This document shows positions 3,176 to 42,139 of a stretch of DNA of 42,139 nucleotides, piece by piece. The number at the start of each line of letters is the position of its first letter. Positions within the stretch are counted from its first letter, which is position 1. The DNA comes from a virus. The stretch is from the IMG/VR virus record IMGVR_UViG_3300048687_000086, positions 1 through 42,139 of that record; one strand, 5' to 3'. The notes under the pieces were generated by a model. It made no database searches. It was not told the DNA's origin and saw only the letters and a program-made list of their open reading frames with translations. Position numbers and translations under genes: made by a program.

Positions 3176-3448
3176 GTGATCAGGGACCCGGAGGCATGGA
3201 CGCCTGACGTGATCCTGGCGGCCTACGAGTGGCGCTCGGCAGGGACCTGCTTCCGCTGCAAGGACGAGGGCAGAGCTGTGGCCGTAGTCGCTACTGTGCG
3301 GTCGATGGAGTTCCTGATGTGCGGAAGCTGCGTCCTGCGCGAGGAGGAGCGGCGCCGGACGAGGGCAGTCGCCCGGGGGCTGCCGTACGCCGCCGGCCGA
3401 ATCGGGCAGTCGCCGCGAGGGCGAAGCGGGGAGAATCCTGGGAGATGA
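3176..3448 (+). CDS. Small zinc-ribbon protein (90 aa)
   Basis: The GTG at 3176 follows AGGAGAG at 3164-3170 with ideal spacing. Two CxxC pairs (CFRC near residue 25 and CGSC near residue 50) predict a zinc ribbon. The C-terminus is Arg-rich and basic, so DNA or RNA binding is possible. It is divergent from the XRE gene at 2764 and is the last gene before the attP terminator. In a lysogen it would therefore be the gene nearest one attachment end. Function unknown. Confidence 0.7.
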   Translation: MIRDPEAWTPDVILAAYEWRSAGTCFRCKDEGRAVAVVATVRSMEFLMCGSCVLREEERRRTRAVARGLPYAAGRIGQSPRGRSGENPGR

Positions 3449-3490
3449 TCAAGCGCGGCAGGCCGATCTGAACCTCGCGAGACCTCTGCA

Positions 3491-3539
3491 AACCGAAGGC
3501 GCCCCCGGCACACGCTGTGTGCCGGGGGCGCCTTCGGTT
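3491..3539. terminator. Very strong bidirectional terminator beside attP
   Basis: A 23-bp perfect stem (3491-3513 and 3517-3539) with a 3-base loop. It lies downstream of the rightward gene at 3176. On the other strand it lies 52 bases past the stop codon of the ino1-like 3' end. After integration it would terminate both the cargo transcript and the restored host gene. Confidence 0.9.
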
Positions 3540-3549
3540 CCGTTTCAGC

Positions 3550-3578
3550 GACCTGCTGATCGGATATCAGTGCAGGTC
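3550..3578. repeat. Inverted repeat between attP and the terminator
   Basis: GACCTGC (3550-3556) and GCAGGTC (3572-3578) flank an inner TGATcggATATCA. It sits 14 bases from the ino1-like stop codon. It may be an integrase or accessory-factor binding site, or part of the host sequence carried in attP. Confidence 0.4.
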
Positions 3579-3591
3579 AAAGCCCTATGAT

Positions 3592-3683
3592 TCAGCGCTC
3601 GACGTCGCCGGCGATGAACTTCTCGACGTTCTCACGGGCCTCGTCGTCGAAGTACTGCACCGGCGGGGACTTCATGAAGTAGT
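3592..3683 (-). other. attP: Probable attP: copy of the 3' end of host ino1 (inositol-3-phosphate synthase)
   Basis: Read leftward, the bases after the integrase stop encode YFMKSPPVQYFDDEA, then roughly ENVEKFIAGDVER and a TGA at 3594-3592. I recognise this as the C-terminus of actinobacterial inositol-3-phosphate synthase; the M. tuberculosis Ino1 C-terminus, as I recall it, also reads YLMKSPPEQ near its end. An isolated gene tail directly beside an integrase is the hallmark of an attachment site that restores the target gene on integration. The crossover must lie within or near this 92-bp segment. The fragment is also in the integrase reading frame just past its stop, which is probably chance. 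Confidence 0.85.
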
Positions 3684-3693
3684 AAGTCCCTAC

Positions 3694-5301
3694 TCACGCA
3701 GTCCATTTGGATAGGTGCAGGTCAGGCACCATGTCCATGGCTCGGATGGCCTGGGAGATTACCCGCTGGGGAGAATTCTGGGAGAGAAGGTACTCCGACT
3801 GCTCCTGCAGCAGACGGTCCAGGACTGCCACGGGAGACCTGGGAGACATCGCCGCCCGTGCGGCAAGGGACTCTGTCCACAGCTGCGAGAGCCCGGCCAG
3901 CATACGGTCCCGCATGCCCTGCGTGATGTGCTTGTACCGAGCGGACACGGAGCCGTCGAGGTGGCCCATCCGCTCATCGATGAGGATCGACGGTGTCCCG
4001 AGGTCCTCGAGCCACGTGGAATGACAGTGCCTGAGACCGTGGTTGGTGAGCCCGGCCGCCACCGGTGCCCAGCAGGCGTCCGCCTGGGTGGCCGACCACC
4101 GGCCACGGACCACGGCGCCAGGCCAGCGGTCGCCGGCCACAATGCACACCGGCCGCGCGGGCTCTGCCGCCCCGTGCCTCGGGTACCAGCCCGACGCGGC
4201 CGGCTCGGTCACCTGAGACCGGTGGTCGTCCCGCGTCCAGTGCGGCAGCACATGCTGGGGCCCCGTCTCCTCGAGCACATCCAGGTCCACCATCGCGGCG
4301 AGCACCCGGTCCGTAGTCGCCTGGCTGACGGCCTCCGGGCGAATCCGGACCCGGGACACAGTGGCAGGGCTGACCCCAGCGAGCTCCGCGATCCGAGCTC
4401 GCGGTACCCGCAGCTCCTGGCGGACGGTGGCCGACCGGAACATCGTCCGCATGCCGTGGCACGGACAGGTCTCCGGAGGACAACGCCGCTTCTGCTCGGC
4501 CAGGAGCATGGACAGAAACTCGGGGACGTCCAGGTCCCGCATGCTGTCGTCCTTGGGTGGGCACCGTTCAAAGACGCCGCCGTCCAACTCGTACAGCTGC
4601 CACTCGATTCGGAGACTGCTGGGTCGGACGTATCTGTGCTCCAGACCGACTACCTCACCCCACCGCGCGCCTGTGTACGCCGTCGTAACCGTCTCGATGA
4701 ACTCGTCGTCGCGACCGGTCAGGATGGCTGCCCGCTCGGCGACCAGAAGGGCGCCCAGCGGCGTGGTGACTACCTTCTCGGGACCACGGTTCTGCGCCCG
4801 CCGACCGGCTCGCTTTCCGCGACCGCGCCGCCGCGCCGCCGGGTTGACCAACATGGCCGGCACATCCTCGACTGCGTCCTGCAGGATCAGGTGCAGCACG
4901 CTGCGGTAGGTCGTGACGCTGGACGACGCATACAGCGCGCGCTGCTCCTTCTCCCAGGCGGCGATGTCGGCCCGTGTGATCGAGGTGATCAGCTTGTCGC
5001 CGAAGTACGGCAGGAGGTGCCCCTGGATATGCGAGGGGTAGTTCTGCATCGTGGACACGGCCAGGTCCTGCGTCGGCCACCACGTCCGGTTGACGTACTC
5101 CCCGAACGTGGGAACCGCCGTCGGATCAACATGCGTTCCGGCCCGGACTGCCGCCTCGGCTGCGTCTGCAGCCTGCTTCGCCTCCCGCTTAGTCCGGTAC
5201 CGGATCGTCTGACCCTGGCTGTCTTTGACCGTGCCGTACGTACCGCCAGCGAGCTTGTACCGCCCCCGGTAGTACGCCCCGCGGCCCTCCGCGTACCCCA
5301 C
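3694..5301 (-). CDS. int: Tyrosine integrase with inserted LacI-like HTH (535 aa)
   Basis: Site-specific recombinase expected to act at attP directly after its own stop. The catalytic residues are visible: Arg213 (TGARWGE), His421 and Arg424 (HGLRHCHST), His447 (MGHLDGS) and the nucleophile Tyr456 (SARYKHIT). An SAM-like core-binding domain spans about residues 63-150. Between Arg213 and His421 is an insertion of about 130 residues. It holds a CPCHG motif and a LacI-type helix-turn-helix at 302-340 (RIAELAGVSPATVSRV). Similar integrases occur in Streptomyces integrated elements, as I recall them, but the insertion is absent from lambda-like integrases. The GTG start at 5301 has AGGAGG upstream. 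It reads leftward with the gene at 5586. Confidence 0.95.
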   Translation of the reverse strand: MGYAEGRGAYYRGRYKLAGGTYGTVKDSQGQTIRYRTKREAKQAADAAEAAVRAGTHVDPTAVPTFGEYVNRTWWPTQDLAVSTMQNYPSHIQGHLLPYFGDKLITSITRADIAAWEKEQRALYASSSVTTYRSVLHLILQDAVEDVPAMLVNPAARRRGRGKRAGRRAQNRGPEKVVTTPLGALLVAERAAILTGRDDEFIETVTTAYTGARWGEVVGLEHRYVRPSSLRIEWQLYELDGGVFERCPPKDDSMRDLDVPEFLSMLLAEQKRRCPPETCPCHGMRTMFRSATVRQELRVPRARIAELAGVSPATVSRVRIRPEAVSQATTDRVLAAMVDLDVLEETGPQHVLPHWTRDDHRSQVTEPAASGWYPRHGAAEPARPVCIVAGDRWPGAVVRGRWSATQADACWAPVAAGLTNHGLRHCHSTWLEDLGTPSILIDERMGHLDGSVSARYKHITQGMRDRMLAGLSQLWTESLAARAAMSPRSPVAVLDRLLQEQSEYLLSQNSPQRVISQAIRAMDMVPDLHLSKWTA

Positions 5302-39742: not shown

Positions 39743-39763
39743 ATCGTCATGTCTGGAGACCTG

Positions 39764-40684
39764 ATGGCCACACCTATGACCGCAGCGAGATTCCTGGCCG
39801 TGCTCCAGAGCGCCGGCCTTACCGTCGTGCAGGTGGGCGACTGGCGTACGCACAACCGCAACCACAAGGGCGCCTGGGGGCCGGTGCACGGGGTGATGCT
39901 CCACCACACCGTCACCACTGGTACGGCCCGCACTGTCGACATCTGCCAGCACGGATACAGTGCGCTGCCCGGCCCGCTCTGTCACGGCGTCATCGCGAAG
40001 GACGGCCGGGTCCACCTGGTCGGGTTCGGCCGCGCGAACCATGCGGGCCTGGGCGACGACGATGTCCTCCAGGCCGTGATCGCCGAGAAGACGCTGCCGG
40101 CGGACGACGAGTCGAACACCGATGGCAACCGGCACTTCTACGGGTTCGAGTGCGAGAACCTCGGCGATGGCAAGGACCCGTGGCCCGCGGCCCAGGTCGA
40201 CGCGATGGTCCGCGCCTCGGCCGCGATCTGCGCCGAGCACGGGTGGGGCGCGGAGTCCATCATCGGCCACCTCGAGTGGCAGCCCGGGAAGATCGACCCC
40301 AGGGGCCCCGGGTTCCCGGGCATGCCCGCGATGCGGGCACGGGTCGACGAGCGCCTGGACGACGAGCAGCCGCCGACCAAGCCCACCACCCCGGCCAAGC
40401 CTCCGGCCGCCAAGCCCCAGGCGCCGCCCTTCCCGGGGCGGACGTACTTCACGGTCGGTGCCCGCAACAAGTACGCGCTGCAGCTGCAGGGCTGGCTGCA
40501 CAAGGGCGGCTGGGGACCGGCGTACACCGTCGGCCCGTCGATGCTCATGACGCCCAAGGACCTCGAGAAGGTCCGCGCGCTGCAGCGCCACTACCTGTCC
40601 AAGCTCGGCCCCGCTGACGGCGGGGTCGGGCCGCTCACCTGGCAGTACGCGTTCGAGGTCGCCAACGGCCTCCGGAAGAAGTGA
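39764..40684 (+). CDS. Endolysin: N-acetylmuramoyl-L-alanine amidase with peptidoglycan-binding domain (306 aa)
   Basis: ATG at 39764 is preferred because GGAG precedes it; ATG 39749 is upstream. An Amidase_2/PGRP-type domain (about residues 25-195) has the zinc ligands His47 (VMLHHTV), His169 (GHLEW) and Asp178 (GKIDPRG). A Pro/Lys/Ala linker (200-222) leads to a C-terminal domain (225-306) with YALQLQGWLHKGGWGPAY, resembling a peptidoglycan-binding fold. It cleaves the amide between muramic acid and the stem peptide. No signal peptide is seen, so release needs the holin. Confidence 0.93.
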   Translation: MATPMTAARFLAVLQSAGLTVVQVGDWRTHNRNHKGAWGPVHGVMLHHTVTTGTARTVDICQHGYSALPGPLCHGVIAKDGRVHLVGFGRANHAGLGDDDVLQAVIAEKTLPADDESNTDGNRHFYGFECENLGDGKDPWPAAQVDAMVRASAAICAEHGWGAESIIGHLEWQPGKIDPRGPGFPGMPAMRARVDERLDDEQPPTKPTTPAKPPAAKPQAPPFPGRTYFTVGARNKYALQLQGWLHKGGWGPAYTVGPSMLMTPKDLEKVRALQRHYLSKLGPADGGVGPLTWQYAFEVANGLRKK

Positions 40685-41705: not shown

Positions 41706-42139
41706 CGACCCACACCGAGCCGAGGCACCGTGCTACGGGGATCCTGGCCAGGCGTTGGCGGTCGCTGGCCGTGACAGCTGTGCTGGCCATCTTGGCGGGG
41801 GCGATCGTCCTGGTGTGGCTGCGGATCGAGGCCGAGGCGGACCGCACTCTGCAGGTGGCGGCCGAGGCCGACCGGCGTGGGGCCGCGGTGTCCACGCTGG
41901 CCGGTGACGTACGGGTCCTGCGCGCTCAAATCCAGGCGAAGGGTGGGACGCCAGCGGCCCCGGACCCGGCGGCTGCGGTCGAGGACCTCCCGGACAGGGT
42001 CGAGGTGCCCGTGCCCATACCCGGCCCGGCAGGTCCTCGAGGACCGGCCGGGCAGGACGGGGAGACTGGCCCGCCCGGTCCCGCGGTGACCGGGCCACCC
42101 GGTGCTACCGGCGCGCCCGGGCCAGCCGTGACCGGTCCG
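41702..42139 (+). CDS. Membrane-anchored collagen-like protein, N-terminal part (continues at 1-368)
   Basis: GTG at 41702 overlaps the previous stop (GTGA). Basic residues precede one membrane helix (LAVTAVLAILAGAIVLVWL, about 22-40). A helical region (DRTLQVAAEADRRGAAVSTL) and then the Gly-X-Y collagen-like stretch begin before the circle junction. Joined across it the protein has 226 residues. The envelope-anchored, extended rod suggests it reaches through the cell wall during lysis or alters the surface. A tail fibre is less likely because of the membrane anchor. Confidence 0.85.
   Translation, partial: MTTHTEPRHRATGILARRWRSLAVTAVLAILAGAIVLVWLRIEAEADRTLQVAAEADRRGAAVSTLAGDVRVLRAQIQAKGGTPAAPDPAAAVEDLPDRVEVPVPIPGPAGPRGPAGQDGETGPPGPAVTGPPGATGAPGPAVTGP
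42015..42139. repeat. Terminal direct repeat (circle-closing overlap), right copy
   Basis: Right-hand copy of the 125-base overlap. It lies in the collagen-like Gly-X-Y coding region of the gene that starts at 41702. Confidence 0.95.

Follow-up and report, generated by a model that had tools for sequence, protein, structure and literature searches.

The DNA analysed here, a viral stretch of 42,139 nucleotides (the window), carries an attachment site whose core is the 3' end of a Streptomyces ino1 gene, and from comparison with related prophages we put at about 96% the probability that this attP and the adjoining integrase direct integration at the chromosomal ino1 3' end in a manner that restores the gene. 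Positions 3429-3785 almost certainly constitute the attP of the window phage, and its parts are as follows.

3592..3681, minus strand: attP core, the ino1 3' end (29 codons and stop), the identity block shared with attB
3694..5301, minus strand: tyrosine integrase, 535 amino acids, with an embedded LacI-type helix-turn-helix (HTH) at residues 304-340 (Pfam and PHROGs)
3717..3724, minus strand: core-flanking site TGACCTGC, integrase side; TGACCTG at -42 to -43 in all three phages compared
3572..3579, minus strand: core-flanking site TGACCTGC, distal side; TGACCTG at +103 to +104 in all three phages
3769..3785, minus strand: paired arm-type TCTCCC-N5-TCTCCC in the 3' end of int; -103/-92, within 1 bp in the three phages
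3429..3445, minus strand: paired arm-type TCTCCC-N5-TCTCCC, distal arm; +237/+248 from the core
3491..3539, no strand assigned: inverted repeat with a perfect 23-bp stem, lying between the core and the distal arm; a strong hairpin
3675..3681, minus strand: predicted 7-bp overlap (crossover) TACTTCA, where the identity block begins on its 5' side
3670..3674, minus strand: predicted right core-type half-site TGAAG; the ino1 and tRNA-Pro blocks have NGAAG at an identical offset
3682..3686, minus strand: predicted phage-side core-type half-site CTTAC

The ino1 tail and the phage that carries it

On the minus strand, positions 3592-3681 encode YFMKSPPVQYFDDEARENVEKFIAGDVER followed by a stop codon, which corresponds to the last 29 codons and stop of Streptomyces ino1, a bacterial gene required for inositol synthesis. 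The homology covers 90 bp including the stop codon and has sharp edges on both sides. An earlier sequence-only reading had recognised an Ino1 C-terminus on this strand, and ino1 matches of up to 99% DNA identity bear it out; the span it proposed, 3592-3683, does hold the tail, but the homology stops at 3681. With reference ino1 genes picked independently by Pfam PF01658 in 11 actinobacterial genomes, BLAST aligned the core to the genuine Streptomyces ino1 3' ends of the 11 test genomes at 87-94% identity over 90 bp. In two separate larger draws, the core found a match in all 393 Streptomyces genomes and in 394 of 395 Streptomycetaceae genomes, with a top match across these draws of 99% DNA identity over 90 bp (E 1.8e-39). 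Judged by these alignments, the similarity of the core to ino1 is far above chance.

The core thus matches a host gene 3' end with both frame and stop codon kept. The three closest host genomes (L101, L102 and L103) encode the same 29 residues as the phage tail, with one to three third-position differences, all of them synonymous. The tail also shares with these three the ending FIAGDVER, which is rarer than FIKGEVER. Since only synonymous changes separate the phage tail from these genes and the FIAGDVER ending is common to them, the host of the window phage probably belongs to this Streptomyces subgroup.

The window has PHROGs-identified genes for terminase, portal, head protease, major head and tape measure, and almost certainly represents a temperate Streptomyces siphophage. 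Its ends form an exact 125-bp repeat (1-125 and 42015-42139) in a collagen-like Gly-repeat coding stretch. Because of this exact terminal repeat, the window is most simply read as a complete circular genome of 42,014 bp with an internal attP; that the overlap sits in repetitive collagen-like sequence counts against this support, and the first 60 bases of the repeat are present only at the two ends.

The integrase gene is intact and ends 12 bp from the attP core. Its R213, H421-x-x-R424, H447 and Y456 are conserved among 11 aligned family members, so that an integrase with the R-H-x-x-R-H-Y residues lies directly beside the attP. The LacI-type HTH sits between the first catalytic arginine (R213) and the HxxR motif and was present in all four integrase relatives scanned (E-values 1e-10 to 1e-16); no description of a LacI HTH inside a tyrosine integrase was found in the literature searched. 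Structure prediction for the integrase was poor (pLDDT 59).

The core could in principle be functional in the window phage in some other way, with a regulatory or decoy role such as that of a C-terminal Ino1 peptide. Its reading frame has indeed stayed intact under synonymous change, but such conservation is also to be expected if lysogens are selected for a restored Ino1. Moreover, a peptide would have no start codon other than an ATG inside the tail, and the catalytic residues of the integrase are conserved, all of which makes a role other than integration highly improbable.

Under the integration reading, the integrase would recombine the 90-bp ino1-tail core with the chromosomal ino1 3' end, joining the 5' part of the host gene to the 29 terminal codons and stop supplied by the phage. 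Ino1 would be rebuilt in the lysogen with an equivalent C-terminus, while the host's own tail would be displaced to the opposite border, next to int and ahead of the host MFS gene.

Prophages at the ino1 3' end

About 700 distinct Streptomycetaceae genomes (393 Streptomyces in one draw and about 307 new ones in the other) were searched for a further copy of the core. Two of them, G561 and G699, carried phage-related prophages (43.6 kb and 37.4 kb, respectively) exactly at the ino1 3' end, and in both the prophage borders were 94-bp identical direct repeats. The sequence-only reading had looked to identical repeats of 20-90 bp at the prophage borders for confirmation, and the two independent lysogens supply repeats of this kind.

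In G561, two core copies in the same orientation (3336915-3337008 and 3380466-3380559) agree at all 94 bp and lie 43,551 bp apart. The intervening DNA is for the most part colinear with the reversed window, with patches of 65-75% nucleotide identity, and its products include homologues of the rep, terL, portal, protease, tape measure and several tail-region proteins of the window. In G699, the prophage forms a 37,540-bp contig (C11; L153, L154) with the core at both ends and with terL, portal, major head and tape-measure genes; it has exact 127-bp overlaps with the contig that ends in ino1 and with the contig that starts with the downstream MFS gene. The integrases of the G561 and G699 prophages are each 52% identical to that of the window.

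Each lysogen genome has a single ino1 (PF01658), located directly before the first repeat. Where the site is unoccupied, an MFS gene comes directly after ino1; in both lysogens this gene comes after the distal repeat. The displaced copy in the lysogens is accordingly the ino1 tail next to int, with the rebuilt ino1 at the opposite border. These relatives are therefore repeat-flanked prophages at ino1, one flank of which holds the gene intact. The earlier proposal that the attP core restores ino1 is borne out in them, the rebuilt gene standing before the proximal repeat.

Both prophages are distant relatives of the window phage, which itself would likewise integrate at ino1; no lysogen of the window phage was present among the approximately 700 genomes, from collections that may omit near-identical records. 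In most Streptomyces genomes that gave two matches, the second was weak (56 bits or less) and was set aside as a chance or paralogous match rather than a prophage border. G629 was dropped as a candidate lysogen because its second match covered 39 bp at 82% and lay 57 kb away.

In a further genome, G608, the ends of two contigs (C6 and C33; L157, L158) both begin inside ino1, one leading to the usual MFS gene and the other, by eye, to an ilvD/edd-like gene. This genome was not counted as a lysogen, as inspection of 7 kb by eye revealed no integrase ORF.

G699 and the window share the integrase, the attP and a 3' gene (window 39749-40684), and most of their structural genes differ. As G561 shares structural genes with the window and G699 mostly does not, the integration module, judged from gene content, moves between phage backbones.

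Putative arm sites and a possible change of target

We compared the window attP with attPs joined from the G561 and G699 lysogens, with distances taken from the core start. The spacing was nearly fixed across all three: motif pairs lie on both sides of the core at conserved distances, as expected of putative arm sites, with the distal TCTCCC pair at +238/+249 in G561 and +240/+251 in G699. The TCTCCC-N5-TCTCCC pair occurs twice in the whole window when both strands are counted, and both occurrences are in the attP. Of 93 integrase relatives whose downstream sequence was long enough, 17 had a TCTCC pair within 260 bp of int (0.1% in shuffles) and 24 had TGACCTG within the same distance (1.4% in shuffles). 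Because of this enrichment over shuffles, we regard the TCTCC pair and TGACCTG, on sequence grounds, as traits of the integrase family; which motif is bound by the N-terminal domain of the integrase is a choice that we infer.

That the ino1 tail is a passive scrap left by transduction or recombination, with no attachment role, might be favoured by the lack of a known lysogen of the exact window phage among the genomes surveyed, but it is refuted in practice by the duplication of the core at either end of the G561 and G699 prophages, by arm sites conserved around the core in two other phages, and by functional segment edges (a stop codon, with int 12 bp away), and we give it next to no credence.

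The hairpin between the core and the distal arm recurs at the same place in the relatives, as a 14-bp perfect stem in G561 and, by eye, as a stem with a 14-nt loop in G699. In a lysogen the hairpin would come right after the rebuilt ino1, where it could act as a terminator of ino1 transcription.

The identity block starts at the TACTTCA position in the window, G561 and G699, and TACTTCA would be the exact crossover. The predicted phage-side half-site reads CTTCC in both relatives. An arrangement of CTT/GAAG core arms with a 9-bp spacer was dropped, since tRNA attR sequences put the phage-side arm off by one base; of the core-type arms, our proposal is accordingly limited to the GAAG side.

The closest integrase relative in the genomes searched was 57% identical. 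The majority of relatives lie near tRNA-Pro(CGG) and a few near other tRNAs, and the ino1 tail was absent from the first 80 relatives examined. The window, G561 and G699 integrases form one clade (SH-aLRT 100), a grouping to be read with some caution given its long branches and quick method. No tRNA gene was present in the window, whose core is ino1. Searches of phage GenBank returned no match, and two further IMG/VR integrase scans gave a tRNA-Ala relative without an ino1 site and one weak match. A KSPP-type pattern search of IMG/VR yielded solely L137 (IMGVR_UViG_3300022723_000094), which on its minus strand has a whole divergent ino1-like gene, tail motif at 2127-2150, possibly a phage-borne metabolic gene.

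The borders of the tRNA-Pro elements are identical from the anticodon loop on (TTCGGGAC then GAAG), their identity block beginning at the 7-nt loop TTCGGGA, and the ino1 block begins TACTTCAT then GAAG. Both blocks therefore start 8 bp before GAAG, a comparison made post hoc and on a shared match of four bases; by eye, the tRNA-Ala relative L188 has GAGG at this position. From this alignment, the overlap may be the first 7 bp of the block, with NGAAG as the shared half-site. Since both blocks start 8 bp before GAAG, the comparison suggests that the integrase target switched from tRNA to ino1. A fuller scenario, in which the LacI-HTH integrase clade, with relatives that enter tRNA anticodon stem-loops, was retargeted to an important protein gene by exchange of only the 7-bp overlap (TTCGGGA to TACTTCA) with NGAAG and arm sites kept, and the module then moved between structurally different phages, is one we put forward tentatively, at somewhat under even odds. 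In the tRNA-Pro elements int is located 3' of the block; the ino1 phages and a tRNA-Pro phage contig (L131) have it on the 5' side.

Relation to known integration systems

With ino1, a core-metabolism gene conserved across Streptomyces joins the attB sites of tyrosine integrases. Since the ino1 3' end was matched in every one of the 393 Streptomyces genomes, the attP-integrase pair could be developed into a vector that integrates across the genus without disrupting its target and is orthogonal to phiC31 and tRNA sites. With its ino1 branch and its tRNA-Pro branch, the integrase family also amounts to a natural experiment on target change.

The mechanism is classical, and ino1 is a new site for a known kind of system. 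The suggestion that it may be a new attB holds insofar as no report of an ino1 attB was found in the open-access literature searched.

The textbook counterpart is the e14 prophage of E. coli, which resembles the window phage (PMC6379469, citing Hill et al. 1989) in using a tyrosine integrase at the 3' end of a metabolic gene, icd (isocitrate dehydrogenase), that the phage restores: e14 supplies the last icd codons (163 bp), and the displaced tail stays at the other border. It differs in host phylum, gene and integrase family, and the core of the window phage is 90 bp.

Within actinobacteria, Int-Y prophages of M. abscessus use non-tRNA attB sites in protein genes, and one replaces C-terminal residues of a host protein (PMC8092301). 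They share with the window phage a tyrosine integrase and a protein-gene attB but differ in having cores of 3-25 bp and other target genes, and inositol is unmentioned in the text of that paper.

Closest in integrase are the Streptomyces and other actinobacterial elements at tRNA-Pro(CGG) (L002, L005, L007, L022, L024, L056, L057 and L076), which may be compared with the AICEs, the actinobacterial conjugative elements, of PMC3218068. Their integrases belong to the same family (about 50-57% identity) and have the embedded LacI HTH, as in the window; beside the core stand the same TCTCCC pair and TGACCTG motifs, and the block restores the 3' end of the target. In contrast with the ino1 phages, their target is a tRNA, and those measured span about 9-26 kb between the tRNA-tail copies.
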